Below are positions 43,919 through 64,000 of a stretch of DNA of 64,000 bases, one piece after another. Under the pieces are notes generated by a model, which worked only from the letters and a program-made list of their open reading frames with translations, ran no database searches and had not been told where the DNA came from. The first letter of the stretch is position 1, and every line of letters begins with the position of its first letter. Both the position numbers and the translations under genes were made by a program. Source of the DNA: Hoeflea sp. (GTDB lineage Bacteria; Pseudomonadota; Alphaproteobacteria; Rhizobiales; Rhizobiaceae); NCBI RefSeq assembly GCF_014359905.1, contig NZ_JACIYP010000001.1, positions 131,758-195,757 on the forward strand, in the 5' to 3' direction.

Positions 43919-45013
43919 TTATTTGTGTTTAGCCGTAGGCTGCGCGTCGGCGGTGGGGATTTGCGTGGGGATTTGCGCCGTGCTCATGGCATTCATGCGG
44001 TTCATGGCGTCGGCGGCGGTGACGTGGGCATAGCGCATGGTGGTTTCGATGCTGGAGTGCCCGAGGATGAGCTGCAGGGCGCGCATGTCGCCGGTGGCGC
44101 GCAGGAATCGGGTGGCGAAGGTGTGGCGCAGGTCGTGGAACCGAAAACTAACCACTTTCGCTTTTTTGCACACCCTTGAGAAGTGGCTGTTGAGTGCCTC
44201 CTCCTCAACCGGTGCGATGTCGCCGCGCTTGTGGTGGATCGAGCCGCGGCGGATCCGGTGGGTGAAGACGCGGGCGTGCGCCCGGGCCAACGGCCAGAGC
44301 AGGGTGCGCAGCGCGTCGGACAGCGGCACGTGCCGGGTCTTGTCGCCCTTACCGGTGATGACGATATAGCCGCCGTGCCAGTCGATGTGGCGCCATTCGA
44401 GATCCAGGCACTCGGCCATGCGGCAGCCTGACAGCATGGAGAATCGGCAGAGCTCGGCGTAACCGGGCGCAAGCTGGGCAAACAGCGCCGTCTCCTCCTC
44501 GACTGATAGTTCGCGGATCACCTCCTGGCGCTCGCGCAGCATGTGATTTTTCCATGTGACGCGCGGTACCGGTTCATCCCACACGTCGCGGGCCCGGGTG
44601 ATGATGGCGCGCAACCTGGCCGTCGCGGTGCGGTTGACCGTGGCCGGTGACACGCCCGAGCCGCGCCGCGCCGCCACCATGGCGGCCACGTCCTGGTTGG
44701 TGAGCGAGCCGAGCAGGCGGTTCTTGCCGAAGTGCCGCTCGAGCCAGGCGATATCATGCAATGTGCTGTCGGAATTGGTGTGGTGCTGGCCGACTTCGAT
44801 CCAGTAGCGCGAGACGGCTGCTCCGAGTGTCAGTCCGCGCGCCGGCTGGCCTGCCCGGGCGCGGGCTTCAGCTTTGGCTGCATCCTTGAGCCGGGCCTGG
44901 GTGCGCTCTGCCTCGCGGCGCGACGTTGCGCCAGTATCTCCTGAATATCGGTGACCCCGGACCGTGAAGTCGTAGGAGAATGTGTCTTGTCCCGGACGTT
45001 TCCAGATCGACAT
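43919..45013 (-). CDS. int: Tyrosine recombinase integrase
   Basis: A 364-residue site-specific recombinase. The N-terminal arm-binding domain (1-60) precedes a core-binding domain and a catalytic domain. The residues are Arg198 (SGCRMAE), Lys225 (GKGDKTR), His293 and Arg296 (HDLRHT), His319 (LGHSS) and the nucleophile Tyr328 (TTMRYAH). Its stop lies 30 bases from the tRNA-Pro break, as expected when int abuts its attachment site. GGGAGAG precedes the ATG. It overlaps the xis-like gene by 184 bases in another frame. Confidence 0.95.
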   Translation of the reverse strand: MSIWKRPGQDTFSYDFTVRGHRYSGDTGATSRREAERTQARLKDAAKAEARARAGQPARGLTLGAAVSRYWIEVGQHHTNSDSTLHDIAWLERHFGKNRLLGSLTNQDVAAMVAARRGSGVSPATVNRTATARLRAIITRARDVWDEPVPRVTWKNHMLRERQEVIRELSVEEETALFAQLAPGYAELCRFSMLSGCRMAECLDLEWRHIDWHGGYIVITGKGDKTRHVPLSDALRTLLWPLARAHARVFTHRIRRGSIHHKRGDIAPVEEEALNSHFSRVCKKAKVVSFRFHDLRHTFATRFLRATGDMRALQLILGHSSIETTMRYAHVTAADAMNRMNAMSTAQIPTQIPTADAQPTAKHK

Positions 45014-58376: not shown

Positions 58377-59675
58377 CTACTTACTCCCTGGGCCTTCTTG
58401 TCCATAACGCAGGAGATCAGTGAAGTGCGGTGGTTCGGCGGTATCGCTGCCGTGCCCGGGAGCTCGCCGAAACAAAGCTTCCAAGATTGCTCCTCGGTCC
58501 TGTTTTACAGCTGCGTCCTCTTTGATCAGGAACAGATATGTATCCAGCATCACAACTCGGGCTCGGGCATCGTCCATCAGAAGCATGGAACGCATGTTGA
58601 ATCTTACCAGAAGCCGAACCAGCCAAACAATGAATCCAAGGGGAGCTGTGATGATAAGAAGTCGACCGAACGCCGTAAAGGTATTTGCAACTGCGCCATC
58701 ACCAACGGAGCCCTCTATGAGGCTGCTTTCCAGAATTCTCAGGAAATCAATAATCTCCGATTTGTACCAGTAGGCGAAGGCTGGAACGCCGATCAGTATC
58801 CCAGCCACAATGCCAGCGGAAATCCAAAATCCTCGTTCGGCATTCGTACGAAATCCGTTCCAAAGCTTTCTTGCTTCATCAAGTTTGAGGCTCTCTTTGA
58901 TTTCCGCAAGTGCCGCCTTCTGGACAGTACTCAACTCATCAACCTGAGTCTCCAAGCCTTCGATAGTTGCGATAATAGCGCTTTGCGATTCATCGATAGC
59001 TTTATAGCGCTCGGCCAACCGGCTGAGACCTTTGTTGTAGGTAGCCAGGCCTTTTTGAGCATCTGCTATTGTTTTCGTGAGTTGTTCGGCTTCTGGAAGC
59101 TTAGGTTGATCCTTGTCGTCGAGAGTGCGGATCGCAGCAATTTTGGCTGTCATTCGCGAAACGGGACCTACAAAAGGGCTGCTGTAAACCGTTGCGTAGC
59201 CCGAGCTGACTTCCTGTGTTCGTTCCAAGTAAAACGAAATTGCCAGTCCAAAAATATCAGCTGCATAAGAATAATATTTGGCATTATTGTTTTTGATCGA
59301 CTTGATGGAAGACCAAAATATATCAAGTTGTTCATCCGTTATAATAGGAACGTTTTTAATGGATTTGATCGTAACGTTATTGTTATTATCGTCAAATATC
59401 TGAAACTGCTGTATTGTAAATATTTCGTCTATAATTCGATCAAAAAAATTATGAGGAAAATTGCGAATAGATTTTGTATAAATATTTGTACGATCAAAGA
59501 GTTGCTTAAAAAACCTGATGTGCAGGTTCCTTTGTTCAGCAACAATGCTCTGCGCTGCACTTTTAGCGTGAGCTCCAGTGACCTGGTAGCTTCCTTTTCC
59601 AAAAAGCGCTTCAAGCGCCAGATATTCCTTTTTACCTACAACATAGGTAGATCCGCTCAATTCAGACACATCCAT
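58377..59675 (-). CDS. Accessory two-helix membrane protein (DUF6161-like)
   Basis: A 432-residue gene set against the rightward operon and far more AT-rich than it (Asn/Ile/Lys-rich residues 85-140). The N-terminal half is soluble; a coiled-coil region (about 195-265) leads to two membrane helices (GFWISAGIVAGILIGVPAFA and LLIITAPLGFIVWLVRLLVR), then a cytosolic C-terminus. I recall similar proteins as DUF6161; this is not certain. Position, strand and composition mark a phage-carried gene, perhaps for exclusion or defence. AGGAC precedes the ATG. Confidence 0.75.
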   Translation of the reverse strand: MDVSELSGSTYVVGKKEYLALEALFGKGSYQVTGAHAKSAAQSIVAEQRNLHIRFFKQLFDRTNIYTKSIRNFPHNFFDRIIDEIFTIQQFQIFDDNNNNVTIKSIKNVPIITDEQLDIFWSSIKSIKNNNAKYYSYAADIFGLAISFYLERTQEVSSGYATVYSSPFVGPVSRMTAKIAAIRTLDDKDQPKLPEAEQLTKTIADAQKGLATYNKGLSRLAERYKAIDESQSAIIATIEGLETQVDELSTVQKAALAEIKESLKLDEARKLWNGFRTNAERGFWISAGIVAGILIGVPAFAYWYKSEIIDFLRILESSLIEGSVGDGAVANTFTAFGRLLIITAPLGFIVWLVRLLVRFNMRSMLLMDDARARVVMLDTYLFLIKEDAAVKQDRGAILEALFRRAPGHGSDTAEPPHFTDLLRYGQEGPGSK

Positions 59676-59878
59676 CCGCAGGTCCTACCTGTTAGTGTTG
59701 CTTCGGGCAACGGCGATCTTTACCCGCCGCAAGTTACCCTGTCGATAGTAGTGGTCGTTGAAGGTGTGGCCATCAACCTTAGTCTGGGTTTTTCCGGCGT
59801 ATGGCTCTTCTGTCATTCGCACAATGGTGCCGGTGAAAGACCCTGCGATCATCCTATTGAATTATGGCGGCTTGCCGA
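59676..59878. promoter_or_regulatory. Gap between the accessory gene and the primase gene
   Basis: A 203-bp divergent region. It separates the AT-rich inserted gene from the resumed rightward operon and should carry the membrane gene's promoter. No operator copy or repeat was found here. Confidence 0.35.
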
Positions 59879-61249
59879 ATGACCGAGATCCACGACCTCT
59901 TCGTCGCCCGCGCCCGCGAGGTCACCCTTGCCGAGGCCGCGCCGCGGCTGGGGCTGGCGCTGACCGGGCGCAAGGCGGAACAGGCGATGCCGTGTCCGCG
60001 CTGCGGCGGCAAGGACCGGTTTGCGGTCAACACCTCCAAGAACAAGTGGAACTGCCGCGGCGGGTCTGTCGGCGGCAATGATGCGATCGGCATGGCCGGA
60101 CATCTTCACGGGCTCGACCTGCATCGCCGCGAGGAACTGCTCGAGGCCTGCGGCCTGGTGCTGGGCGAGGATGTGCCCGACGGGGCGGAGGCGATCAGCG
60201 AGGAGCGGCGCGCAGCGATGAAGGCCGAGGCCGAGGCGCTGAAGGCCAAGGCGGATGCCGAGGCTGCGGAGAGGGACAGGACGGCCGGCGATTTCCGCGA
60301 GAAGGAACTGGCCAGGTGCCGGGGGATCTACGAGGCGGTTCTTCCGGGGCTGGGGGGCACTGATGCAGCGCGCTATCTGCGCGGCCGTGCCGGCCTGCCG
60401 GTGCTTGCGGTAGACGCTATGAGTGCTGCCCGTTTTGTAGGGAAGCTCACCTATTGGCATGGCAAGGACGAGCGCGGCTTTGCCCGCGACATCTGGTGCG
60501 GGCCGGCGCTGGTGCTGCCCTTTATCGATGGCGAAGGCCAGATCATCGGCATTCACCAGACATGGATCGACCTCAATGCCGTGCCGAAACGGCGACCGCT
60601 GCTCTATGGCCTCACCAAGGCGGGCGCGGAGGCGGGCCGCGAGGACCGCGCCGGTTCGCCCACGGCCGCTTGGCCTTCGGCCGATGATCTCGCGGCGGGG
60701 TTCTATGAGCGGCTGCCCACCAAGAAGATGCGCGGCACCAAGAAGGGCGGGCTGCTGCCGATCGCGGGTCACATGAGCATGACCCGCTGGGTGGCGGGCG
60801 AGGGCATCGAGAATGTCTGCGCCTGGCTCGGCAAGGAGGTGCGCGAGGACGAGGCGCTGGCGCGGTCGACGTTTTACGCGGCAGCCGGCGATATCGGCAA
60901 CCTTGCGGGTGCGAGCGCGCGCACCGGCCGCTGGAAGCACCCGGCCGAGACGAAGACCGACGCGAAGGGCGTGGCCCGCCCGGTGATGCTGCCGAGCCCG
61001 GATCCTGACCCGGAGAAGCTCGGGGAAGGGTTTCCGGTCATGCCCCATGTCACAGAGCTGCTGCTGCTCGGCGACGGCGATTCCGAACCCTACTGGACCG
61101 CCACCATGATGGCCCGCGCCGCCACGCGCGCGGCCCTGCTGGCGCCCGGGGCCGATGTGCGCGTGCCCTGGCCGCCGGCCGGGCGGGACTGGGCGGAGAC
61201 GATTTTGGAAGTGATGAGGGGCAGCCAGGCCGTGACGGGGAATACATGA
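59879..61249 (+). CDS. Primase-like protein with CHC2-type zinc finger
   Basis: A 456-residue protein. The zinc finger CPRCGGKDRFAVNTSKNKWN then C (residues about 38-58) is of the DnaG/P4-alpha type. A helical linker (about 110-145) and a Toprim-like core (GHMSMTRWVAGEGIENVCAW) follow. It likely primes element replication with the helicase encoded next, with which it overlaps by four bases. ATG at 59879 lacks a strong Shine-Dalgarno; 59864 is an alternative. Confidence 0.85.
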   Translation: MTEIHDLFVARAREVTLAEAAPRLGLALTGRKAEQAMPCPRCGGKDRFAVNTSKNKWNCRGGSVGGNDAIGMAGHLHGLDLHRREELLEACGLVLGEDVPDGAEAISEERRAAMKAEAEALKAKADAEAAERDRTAGDFREKELARCRGIYEAVLPGLGGTDAARYLRGRAGLPVLAVDAMSAARFVGKLTYWHGKDERGFARDIWCGPALVLPFIDGEGQIIGIHQTWIDLNAVPKRRPLLYGLTKAGAEAGREDRAGSPTAAWPSADDLAAGFYERLPTKKMRGTKKGGLLPIAGHMSMTRWVAGEGIENVCAWLGKEVREDEALARSTFYAAAGDIGNLAGASARTGRWKHPAETKTDAKGVARPVMLPSPDPDPEKLGEGFPVMPHVTELLLLGDGDSEPYWTATMMARAATRAALLAPGADVRVPWPPAGRDWAETILEVMRGSQAVTGNT

Positions 61250-63090
61250 ACCAGAACGCCAATATCCCACCAGCCGTCCAGGCTCAGCTTACGGCCATGG
61301 GCCATGCGCCGCCCGATGCCGCAAGGCCAGACAAATCCCCGGACCCCTTGCAGGGCTCTGATGCTGCTGGTGAAACTGGTGCAAGACGGCAAAAGCCGGA
61401 CGGCGGCCGGAAAAAGGGCGCTTTTGCGCGTGGTGCCGATCAACCGTCGCTGGCCGACATTGTCGAGGCCTGCGTTATCCTCGATCATTCCGACACCGAC
61501 AACGCCAAGCGGCTGCTCACGCATTTCGGCGCGGACCTGCTGGTGGTCACGCAATCCAAGGCCAAGAGCCCGTTCTATGCGGTGTGGACCGGGGCCAGCT
61601 GGGACACCGACAATGGCGGCCCGCGGGCGCTGGCGCTGGCGCAGCAGCTCGGCGACCTGATCATGATGGAGGTCGAGCACATCGGCCCGACGCCGGATGA
61701 GGCGGAGGCGATGGGCACAGCCGAGACGGCGTGGGGAGAAATGTGGCCGGCGCTGTCGCCCGACGATGTCGGACCCAAGCAATCTGCCATGTTGCGCGCG
61801 GCGCATGCTGCGCTGAAAGCCTGGCAGAAGCGCCGGGCGAGCCGCGCCTCTTTCGCCGTGGGGTCGAAGAACCTGGCCAAGATGAACGCCATGCTGGCCT
61901 GCGCCGCGCCCCACATCATGCGCGATCCCGACGATTTCAACGCCGATCGCTATTCCTTCGCCACGCTCAACCACACCATCCGCTTCGGGCGTGAGACCGT
62001 GATCGTGCCCGCCCAGTCTGACGCCCAGGAGGATGGCGAGGCAATCCGCGCCACCGTCGATGTGCGCAAGGGCCATGCGCGCGAGGACCTGATCACCCAG
62101 CTGGTGCCGGTCGATTTCGACCCCGACGCGACCTGTCCGAAATGGGAGGCGTTCCTCACCCGCATGCTGCCGGACCCGCTGGTGCGCAAGCTGGTGCAGA
62201 TCGCCTTCGCGCTCGGGCTGGTGGGCGTCACGGTGCAAAAGCTGTTTTTCCATTATGGCTCGGGCGCCAACGGCAAGTCGGTCGCCATGGAGGTGATATG
62301 CCGGCTTCTGGGCTCGGCCTCGGTGACGCTGCCCGCCACCTCGTTCATCGGCGAGAGCAACACCGGCGGCTCGGCCTCGCCCGATATCGCCCGGCTTTAC
62401 GGGCGCCGATTCCTGCGCGTCAAGGAGCTGCCGGTGGGAGAGGACCTGAAGGAGAACCTGGTCAAGGAGGTGACGGGCGGCGAGGCGATCACCGCGCGCG
62501 ACCTGCACCAGGGCTATTTCGACTTCGACCCGCTGTTCACGCCGCATATGAGCGGCAACGGCTATCCGCGCATCACCGGCATGGACAACGGCATCTGGCG
62601 GCGCATGTGCGTGATCCACTGGCCCGTGCAGCTGTCGGCGGACCAGCAGCGCGATTTCGAGGACGTGATGGGCGAGTTCGAGGCCGAGTTCCCGGGCATT
62701 CTCAACTGGCTGGTCGACGGCATGCGCATGTTTCTCGAGGAGGGGCTCGTGATCCCGGAAGCCGTGGCACGGGCCACCCAGGACTATCGCGACGAGATGG
62801 ACCCGACCGCGGCTTTCTGCGCGGCCTGTGTTCGCCCAGACGCGGGCGGAAAGCTGACGGCCAAGGATTTCTATCACGCCTATGTGAACTACACCGTCGA
62901 CCAGGGCGGCAAGCCGATCGCGCTCACGCGCTTCGGGCTGATCATGAAGCGAAAATATGAGCGGCAGGAGGGCCGGACAAACCACTATCTCGGCGTTGTG
63001 CTGGTCAATGTGCCGCGCGGCGAGGGCGATAGCGGCCCGGGTGGTGCAGGCTCGCCACCGGGCCATTGGGAGGAAATCCCGCCGATTTAG
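61246..63090 (+). CDS. P4-type/D5-like phage replicative helicase
   Basis: A 614-residue SF3 helicase of the P4 alpha/D5 type. Walker A is HYGSGANGKSV (about residues 336-346), and the B/C region includes GRRFLRVKELPVGEDLKENL with KEVTGGEAITARDLHQGYFD. The D5N-like part lies at 230-310 and a winged helix at the C-terminus. It overlaps the primase by four bases. The iteron-like repeats begin eleven bases after its stop, in the place of an origin it might unwind. Confidence 0.92.
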   Translation: MNQNANIPPAVQAQLTAMGHAPPDAARPDKSPDPLQGSDAAGETGARRQKPDGGRKKGAFARGADQPSLADIVEACVILDHSDTDNAKRLLTHFGADLLVVTQSKAKSPFYAVWTGASWDTDNGGPRALALAQQLGDLIMMEVEHIGPTPDEAEAMGTAETAWGEMWPALSPDDVGPKQSAMLRAAHAALKAWQKRRASRASFAVGSKNLAKMNAMLACAAPHIMRDPDDFNADRYSFATLNHTIRFGRETVIVPAQSDAQEDGEAIRATVDVRKGHAREDLITQLVPVDFDPDATCPKWEAFLTRMLPDPLVRKLVQIAFALGLVGVTVQKLFFHYGSGANGKSVAMEVICRLLGSASVTLPATSFIGESNTGGSASPDIARLYGRRFLRVKELPVGEDLKENLVKEVTGGEAITARDLHQGYFDFDPLFTPHMSGNGYPRITGMDNGIWRRMCVIHWPVQLSADQQRDFEDVMGEFEAEFPGILNWLVDGMRMFLEEGLVIPEAVARATQDYRDEMDPTAAFCAACVRPDAGGKLTAKDFYHAYVNYTVDQGGKPIALTRFGLIMKRKYERQEGRTNHYLGVVLVNVPRGEGDSGPGGAGSPPGHWEEIPPI

Positions 63091-63100
63091 GCCGAAAACT

Positions 63101-63130
63101 GCACCAGTTTGCACCAGTTGCGCACCAGTT
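63101..63130 (+). repeat. Three forward GCACCAGT iterons
   Basis: GCACCAGT starts at 63101, 63111 and 63122, spaced 10 and 11 bases, so one per helical turn. Confidence 0.8.
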
Positions 63131-63173
63131 CGCGACAGTCTGCCAAGGGGGTTTGGGGGAATGAAATCAAGCA

Positions 63174-63283
63174 CTTGCACCAGTCTGCACCAGTTTTGCC
63201 GTCCCTATACGCATGGGGAAAATCTGCGGAGGAAAAAAACCATATGCGTATAGGCGTCAAAAACTGGTGCAGACTGGTGCAAG
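63174..63283. repeat. Imperfect inverted repeat of about 40 bp with paired iterons
   Basis: The left arm (63174-63214) and right arm (63244-63283) are near-complementary. Each has two iterons ten bases apart (forward at 63177 and 63187; reverse at 63263-63270 and 63273-63280) and ends in CCTATACGCAT (63204-63214) or ATGCGTATAGG (63244-63254). The centre is purine-rich (GGGGAAAATCTGCGGAGG). It could extrude as a cruciform. Confidence 0.8.
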
Positions 63284-63327
63284 CCATTGAAATATAGATA
63301 GAAAAACTATCGCTTAAACTATCGCAA

Positions 63328-63345
63328 ACTGGTGAAAACTGGTGC
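63328..63345 (-). repeat. Reverse iteron pair beside the next gene
   Basis: ACTGGTGA (63328-63335) and ACTGGTGC (63338-63345) are reverse copies ten bases apart, 28 bases before the next ATG. Confidence 0.75.
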
Positions 63346-63372
63346 AGCACTCAAGAACAGGAAAAACCGCTC

Positions 63373-64000
63373 ATGAGACAGACCGGAAAACAGACGGGCA
63401 TTATCGAGCTGCTGGAATGGGCCTACCGGCAGGAACTGCCCAAGGCGGAACGGGCGGTGGCGAGCGGAACGCAGACGGCGAGTGCCGCCTCGTCCTGGGG
63501 CATGGTCTATGATTTCGGCATTCTGGGCACGGTGATCGACGCGCCGCTCAATGCCCATGGGGTGGTGCCGATCTGGATGGATGCGGGCGACGTTCACCCC
63601 GATGCCCTGATCATCGGCCGCGCGGTGGACGGGCTGGCCGGGCTTTCCGTCGAGATCGCGCCGGACTGGTCGCCCTTTGCCGATTGGGCCGATGCGGACG
63701 GACTGGTGGCGGAAGCCGTGCGGCGGCGTCGCTGGCGGCTGGTGAAGCTTGCGGGACGCGAGATCCGAACCATGGTGATTGCCCGCGCCGTGCTCGGCCG
63801 GGCACCGGACTGGCGTGGCGCGGAGCCGGGGCGCACGATGGTGACGCGCGGCGGCAAGCCGGCGTGGTTCATGAAGCAGATGCGCATCGATCACTCGTCG
63901 GGCATGGAGTTCGAGTGCGAGGTGGATGGGTATAATCCACGCAGTCGGCGGCCGAGGCCGGGCGCCTACCGCAAATACCTGCTGTGCGACGATGTCGAGG
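63373..64000 (+). CDS. Hypothetical phage protein (partial)
   Basis: An open frame of 209 codons that runs off the window. It starts MRQTGKQTGIIELLEWAYRQ with an Ala-rich helical region (KAERAVASGTQTASAASSWG) and a basic segment near 115-140. AGGAAA precedes the ATG. It follows the candidate origin and could be a regulator or replication protein; no domain recognised. Confidence 0.7.
   Translation, partial: MRQTGKQTGIIELLEWAYRQELPKAERAVASGTQTASAASSWGMVYDFGILGTVIDAPLNAHGVVPIWMDAGDVHPDALIIGRAVDGLAGLSVEIAPDWSPFADWADADGLVAEAVRRRRWRLVKLAGREIRTMVIARAVLGRAPDWRGAEPGRTMVTRGGKPAWFMKQMRIDHSSGMEFECEVDGYNPRSRRPRPGAYRKYLLCDDVE

Follow-up and report, generated by a model that had tools for sequence, protein, structure and literature searches.

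A 64,000-nucleotide stretch of the Hoeflea sp. contig NZ_JACIYP010000001.1 (referred to as the window) contains an array of 8-bp repeats (iterons) at positions 63101–63345, immediately behind the gene of a superfamily 3 (SF3) helicase. The array is very probably the replication origin of the temperate prophage in which it lies, and the prophage's own helicase would bind it via a C-terminal winged helix whose wing (approximately residues 573–582) would read the repeated word. It is best read as a self-loading SF3-helicase origin of the type described for the satellite phage P4, the Staphylococcus aureus pathogenicity islands (SaPI), and Lactobacillus phage A2, located here in a prophage with virion genes. 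An origin had been suggested in the initial annotation of this DNA, and the suggestion is supported by the retention of the array in relatives and by the match of its layout and position to the annotated origins of P4 and A2. Binding and loading of the helicase at the array are suggested by the covariation of repeat word and helicase and by precedent.

The word GCACCAGT is found 10 times in the window, with eight of the copies inside the array. In 100 dinucleotide-preserving shuffles, the mean was 1.5 copies and none reached 10. Together with the variant ACTGGTGA, these eight copies are the nine described in the initial annotation as pairs or a triplet with a phasing of 10–11 bp. The nine copies and the phasing were borne out, but the array is larger, as three sites of the same word family had been overlooked (GCGACAGT in the left half and two copies of GCGATAGT in the right half; Table 1). 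The full array comprises 12 sites arranged as 4 + 2, a central dyad, and 2 + 4, where the sites of the left half read on the plus strand and those of the right half on the minus strand. The distances between site starts are 10, 11, 10, 45, and 10 bp in the left half, 76 bp across the centre, and 10, 33, 12, 10, and 10 bp in the right half. The array begins 10 bp past the helicase stop codon and covers 245 bp in total. Beyond it, the words GC(ACC/GAT/GAC)AGT have just five scattered matches in the window, with a maximum of one per 260-bp stretch. The array is mixed: the word GCGATAGT, in the minority here, serves as the principal word in the related phages L007, L011, L012, and L014 (loci of the comparison are given as L numbers).

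The centre of the array is formed by an inverted repeat with 11-bp arms (CCTATACGCAT and ATGCGTATAGG) separated by 29 nt. The dyad had been reported as 40 bp long, which is the distance from start to start of the arms; its full extent is 51 bp. The AT-rich tract seen earlier is present in the right spacer, where the AT content reaches 76% compared with 54% in the array centre and 37% in the window. When the last 1 kb of the window was compared with its own genome, a single place was matched, the second time as its own inverted match, so that the array region is a large-scale palindrome.

For the comparison with relatives, helicase homologues were drawn from viral contigs (in three of the searches, the best 80 matches), genomes, and annotated phages. 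This yielded 316 loci, of which six lacked a helicase match or a visible stop codon; 87 of the other 310 were dropped as near-duplicates or because they were too short, leaving 223 distinct regions. In the 420 bp behind each helicase gene, the commonest 8-mer was counted without supervision on both strands, allowing at most one mismatch, and 420-bp stretches of the helicase genes themselves (223 stretches) as well as dinucleotide shuffles served as controls. At least nine sites of one 8-mer were found in 142 of the 223 regions and in none of the 223 control stretches (control maximum 8), while the dinucleotide shuffles contained a mean of 4.3 and a maximum of 9 sites. The initial annotation had named the loss of the repeats from relatives that keep the helicase as evidence against an origin; what was found instead is that these 142 regions exceed every control stretch. 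After refinement, 177 of the 223 regions contained at least eight sites.

The word differs between phages and the layout is kept. Array words in relatives include GCACCAGT, GCGATAGT, GCGAGGGT, TGTAGGGT, ATGACGCT, GGGAGGCT, GGGACGCA, GGGCCTGA, and GGACAGCA. The commonest split between the two halves is 6/6 (26 of 223), and the splits 5/6, 6/5, 5/5, 7/6, and 6/7 together account for 65 more. Neighbouring sites are most commonly 9 bp apart, followed by 10, 11, and 8 bp. Several arrays are mirrored to within one or two bases, for example that of L269 (8, 11, 17, 50, 8, then 87 across the centre, then 8, 50, 17, 11, 8), and the mean mirrored fraction of the 177 arrays was 0.66 compared with 0.47 for random placements. 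Inverted repeats of at least 7 bp were detected in 33 of 141 array centres (8% in shuffled sequences), and the mean AT content of 147 array centres was 49%, compared with 37% in the helicase genes. Eight further phage records were fetched and seven of them scanned; the record of L324 ends with the helicase gene. The Synechococcus phage L319 and the Microcystis phage L321 showed 13 sites each (null maxima 6) and were the only records among the seven in which the scan revealed clean mirrored arrays. Nine sites each were present in L318 and L325 (null maxima 6) and eight each in L322 and L323 (null maxima 7 and 5, respectively).

The covariation of the repeat word with the neighbouring genes was analyzed in 147 of the 177 arrays, which were kept after filtering for information, strand agreement, and centre. 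Word similarity followed the identity of the primase/helicase family (Spearman 0.385, 10,585 pairs) and the identity of the aligned helicases (rho 0.387). The correlation with the gene downstream of the array amounted to 0.171 (5,151 pairs) and dropped to 0.03 with the helicase family fixed, whereas the helicase family retained 0.41 with the downstream gene fixed. A repetition with aligned helicases and permutations resulted in 0.04–0.05 for the downstream gene and 0.39–0.50 for the helicase. Since both genes adjoin the array, linkage alone fails to explain this difference. The product of the downstream gene was rejected as the reader of the word, because no independent signal was left once the helicase was fixed. 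The primase was also rejected, its link being weaker (0.150 given the helicase) than that of the helicase given the primase (0.373; 110 loci).

That the origin is read by a partner protein instead of the helicase is very improbable. The correlation of the word with the whole helicase is moderate and linked genes can covary passively, but the covariation peaks in the wing of the DNA-binding domain (see below) and the gene across the array gives no signal of its own. The initial annotation had proposed either the helicase or the 57107 protein as the binder, and the evidence favours the helicase; relatives of the 57107 protein were found in only 3 of the 147 array loci, a count that covers approximately 6 kb on each side of the array and may have missed some.

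A packaging site (cos/pac), in which the repeats would be binding sites of the terminase, is a very improbable explanation and was rejected because the word is unrelated to the identity of the large terminase (rho 0.018, 2,628 pairs; partial correlation given the helicase −0.05). L011 and L012 share a word, although their large terminases are 27% identical, whereas L006 and L011 differ in their words with large terminases that are 89% identical. The record of the Rhodobacter phage RcapNL (L086/L090) does end inside a homologous array with annotated 26-nt 3′ cohesive overhangs, but the AmM-1 record ends approximately 3 kb from its array. The terminase genes of the window's prophage lie about 2 kb downstream of the array, as a packaging site would allow, and a family at the position of the small terminase is independently linked with the word (38 loci; partial correlation 0.16–0.19 with the helicase fixed, reached in 0 of 200 permutations). 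The reverse partial correlation, of the helicase given this family, is stronger (0.42–0.49). The family is located approximately 2.1 kb behind the helicase stop codon (for example L003, 9729–10394); the small terminase of the window belongs to another family.

An operator, through which a regulator or the helicase as a repressor would control transcription between the replication and the late genes, has a similarly small chance of being correct. The array is indeed intergenic between early and downstream genes, and arrays of short repeats can be operators; twelve sites in mirrored sixes around a dyad would not be expected of one, nor would the match to the annotated origins of P4 and A2 and the covariation with the helicase be expected of an ordinary operator. 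Iteron arrays also occur at plasmid partition and incompatibility sites, but such a role is hardly conceivable here, as the prophage has an integrase and no partition gene was named among the scanned proteins, which cover only part of the prophage.

The position within the helicase that the word follows was mapped by ranking 467 six-residue windows along the protein for how well they predict word similarity. With all pairs, the top-ranking window ends at residue 578 (0.235; mean 0.041, standard deviation 0.063). With pairs that are 45%–95% identical, the best five windows end at residues 578–582 (0.375–0.413; mean 0.062, standard deviation 0.090), that is, in the wing of the predicted C-terminal winged helix (helix 560–570, wing 573–582). 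Thinning to 127 loci left the leading wing windows unchanged. Windows ending at residues 562–566, at the start of the helix before the wing, also scored high. An earlier statistic had placed a window of the ATPase domain first, the best wing window second, and the pre-chosen one seventh of 467; registering the words on a wider matrix brought the wing to first place. The two top single columns that map to a residue of the window's helicase belong to the C-terminal domain.

In 18 loci, an R-[IVT]-R-x-aromatic wing was paired with the word CGAGGGT; the wing alone was seen in two, the word alone in seven, and neither in 120 (Fisher p 1.5e-15). Counted by helicase clusters, the corresponding numbers were 8, 1, 2, and 22 (p 3e-5), and the pairing recurs in several separate clusters. 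L012 and L006, whose helicases are 86% identical, differ in the wing (I and A, respectively) and have different words. Within clusters, the word was predicted slightly better by the nearest wing (0.805) than by the nearest whole helicase (0.774) or at random (0.652). Judged from these comparisons, the localization to the wing is strong between related helicases and weak between deeply diverged ones.

The AlphaFold2 model of the helicase (mean predicted local distance difference test score, pLDDT, 87) matched D5-type hexameric and dodecameric primase-helicases, according to the entry titles. The structure alignment included 49 of 53 chosen loci; four were dropped due to a frame problem. The isolated C-terminal domain was modelled with a mean pLDDT of 79 and a core above 90. 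Among the 50 Foldseek matches listed for this domain, the closest was the RFX DNA-binding domain 1dp7 (E-value 1e-3, template modelling scores 0.45/0.64). RFX is described, in PMC4333399, as a winged helix that places the wing and not the helix in the major groove. The predicted RFX-like fold agrees with the covariation in the wing, which had been found first and independently. At the sequence level, the helicase aligned with P4 alpha with an hhalign probability of 97.7; the alignment covers the recognition helix and ends before the wing. The family profile matched 7ola, titled 'DNA primase', with an E-value of 3e-14; this entry is presumably SaPI5 Rep. The C-terminal domain alone gave weak sequence matches (7ola, E-value 0.06; P4 alpha, hhalign probability 12.6).

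Several results weigh against an origin that is read by the wing. Fewer than eight refined sites were found in 46 of the 223 relatives, and no more than 46 of the 177 arrays beat all 30 random placements when mirroring was tested strictly. No clear switch in the GC skew of the prophage is visible where the array lies, and the skew does not support bidirectional replication. The residual link of the small-terminase-position family belongs here as well. Concerning the wing, windows ending at residues 373 and 90 also scored high with all pairs, and as whole domains, the ATPase (0.15) and the N-terminal domain (0.15) scored above the C-terminal domain (0.10). About one-third of the best 25 single columns are located in the C-terminal domain and the remainder mostly in the ATPase domain. 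Across distant clusters, the nearest wing predicted the word no better than the nearest whole helicase (0.546 vs. 0.566; random 0.385). Pox_D5 scored below the Pfam cut-off. As the closest structural counterpart of the C-terminal domain, the origin-binding domain of P4 alpha (1ka8) was considered and rejected, as it is absent among the 50 Foldseek matches listed. In the annotated origin of phage A2, which is compared below, the automatic scan chose another, low-complexity 8-mer (7 sites, null maximum 6).

As to the mechanism, one helicase subunit would occupy each site, so that each half-array of six would carry one hexamer. The two hexamers would meet head to head as a double hexamer, which could open an AT-richer part and start replication, with primers made by the adjacent primase. 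The 6 + 6 stoichiometry is less certain than helicase binding itself; it is suggested by the site counts and by the dodecamers of the fold relatives. That replication proceeds bidirectionally would be a guess.

A second element of the array is rich in G. Plus-strand matches to the strict pattern GGGG-N1-4-GGGG were detected in 49 left spacers and 78 centres of the 147 arrays, compared with two right spacers. On the other strand, the numbers for the three zones were 2, 0, and 0, and in shuffles approximately 1% per zone. A relaxed pattern detects the element in 116 of the 147 relatives, again on the plus strand and within the left spacer or the centre. The strict pattern reaches 3.8 per kb within the array regions, compared with 0.18 per kb elsewhere in the loci, and the middle of the element is mostly TTC, TGC, TCA, or TTT. 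An inverted copy is located between the helicase stop codon and the first iteron in 76 of 147 loci. Taken alone, the element of the window is unexceptional, with five plus-strand and two minus-strand matches in the GC-rich 64 kb. The G-rich element GGGGTNCGGGG is constant, unlike the iteron word, and should therefore be read by something conserved. A search for a fixed-distance consensus beside the inner sites revealed only one weak column per side. The more loosely placed motif TCAA-N3-5-TT is enriched: among the 147 arrays, 46 left spacers and 44 right spacers carry it facing the inner pair (shuffled 1.8 and 5.6); in the reverse orientation, it was found in 9 left and 11 right spacers.

Tentatively, and with more doubt than confidence, the more than 100 natural initiator–origin pairs may be viewed as one system, in which the RFX-like wing and the 12-site origin change words jointly, the 6 + 6 geometry is fixed with a hexamer per half, and the constant, strand-specific GGGGTNCGGGG marks the left spacer and the centre and orients the otherwise symmetric origin, for instance by serving as the site where priming begins.

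The gene order of the prophage is integrase, CI-like and CII-like regulators, zinc-ribbon primase, helicase, array, and the phrog_9306 gene (Table 1), followed by a match to a minor tail protein family, the small and large terminase, portal, protease, major head protein, and tape measure. The primase-like gene and the SF3 helicase gene, which had been recognized ahead of the array in the initial annotation, were both confirmed by family matches; in the primase, DUF7146 scored above and Zn_Ribbon_Prim below the Pfam cut-off. Satellites of the PICI (phage-inducible chromosomal island) or P4-like kind have no virion genes and depend on a helper. The element of the window carries virion genes of its own (terminases, portal, protease, major head protein, and tape measure) and is a prophage rather than a satellite. 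Among the named genomes of the collection, the nearest relative lies in Hoeflea sp. BAL378, with a helicase that is 82% identical. The phrog_9306-position family adjoins the array in 102 of the 147 loci, and 78 of these were matched by the window's own protein; an LLxWAYxxEL-like motif near the start was noted in this family by eye. In L006, L011, and L012, the block of primase, helicase, array, and phrog_9306 gene is stable, and the terminase modules behind it differ. The helicase of L051 resembles that of L004 in its first ~25 residues and is as a whole ~32% identical to that of the window, indicating a mosaic N-terminus. A DUF6161 gene (58377–59675, minus strand) lies among the early genes, opposite in strand and between the phrog_27832 gene and the primase; it looks like an inserted accessory gene.

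Table 1. Elements of the candidate origin and selected prophage genes, in coordinates of the window.
Feature	Position	Strand	Details
Left outer group	63101..63139	+	GCACCAGT at 63101, 63111, 63122; GCGACAGT at 63132-63139
G-rich element	63147..63159	+	GGGGGTTTGGGGG; left spacer
31-nt inverted arms	63167-63197 / 63260-63290	.	90% complementary; contain inner pairs and mirrored flanks
Left inner pair	63177..63194	+	GCACCAGT at 63177, 63187
Central 11-bp inverted repeat	63204..63254	.	arms 63204-63214, 63244-63254
Right inner pair	63263..63280	-	GCACCAGT at 63263, 63273
AT-rich tract	63281..63305	.	76% AT
Right outer group	63306..63345	-	GCGATAGT at 63306-63313, 63318-63325; ACTGGTGA (plus-strand reading) at 63328-63335; GCACCAGT at 63338
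Integrase	43919-45013		
Zinc-ribbon type primase	59864..61249	+	upstream partner of the helicase; phrog_510 DNA primase, E 3e-48
SF3 helicase (D5/P4-alpha type)	61246..63090	+	614 amino acids; D5_N, E 8e-12; phrog_1156, E 2e-117
phrog_9306 gene (start)	63373..64000	+	271 amino acids; extends past the window; right-hand border of the array

The origin type is already known. New are the covariation of word and wing over many pairs, the mirrored 6 + 6 geometry, and the constant G-rich element. No account of such an array in alphaproteobacterial prophages was found in the open-licence literature, and the terms 'iteron', 'replication origin', and 'origin of replication' are absent from the main text of PMC6536676. 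An origin type described as peculiar to phage satellites is extended to phages with virion genes of their own. With these natural pairs, two questions become accessible to testing: the way in which two hexamers of a self-loading SF3 helicase are seated on duplex DNA, and the residues that determine initiator–origin specificity, on which it depends which phages and satellites are able to use a common origin.

Of the known systems, plasmid pRN1 resembles the array described here in that its origin lies directly downstream of the gene of a primase/helicase with a C-terminal winged helix, but it requires a 100-nt stem-loop and has no iterons (PMC4234260). In SaPI and PICI, an AT-rich region that lies immediately 3′ of the initiator gene is surrounded by two iteron sets (PMC6092414), and the iterons directly behind rep are recognized by the C-terminal domain of Rep, apparently in the form of two hexamers (PMC7581432). 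The iterons of the window and its relatives likewise form two sets immediately 3′ of the helicase gene. In contrast to these satellites, the element that carries the array has terminase, portal, and capsid genes, and such arrays also occur in complete phage records.

In Lactobacillus phage A2, the annotated rep_origin, which reportedly rests on experiments, is also located directly behind a P4-type primase/helicase gene. A reading of its sequence reveals mirrored CGGGAGGAT repeats around an AT-rich centre. The word is a different one, and the homologous gene encodes a single 770-amino-acid 'putative primase'.

The P4 system differs from the array in several respects. P4 is a satellite, whereas the prophage of the window carries head and tail genes. 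Its repeats are located at the origin (ori) and at the cis replication region (crr), kilobases apart, compared with two facing halves within 245 bp. The primase of P4 is part of alpha (PMC4234260), whereas primase and helicase are encoded by separate genes here. On the other hand, both systems share a homologous helicase and C-terminal domain as well as 8-bp repeats (type 1 in P4), which alpha binds via a winged helix (same paper), and crr lies just 3′ of alpha, as the array lies just behind the helicase gene. The annotated ori of P4 contains six type-1 repeats, the fourth of which is inverted, with spacings of 10, 11, 22, 43, and 10, and resembles one half-array. Thirty half-arrays of the relatives share the order of P4 ori, with median spacings of 9, 11, 17, 50, and 9.
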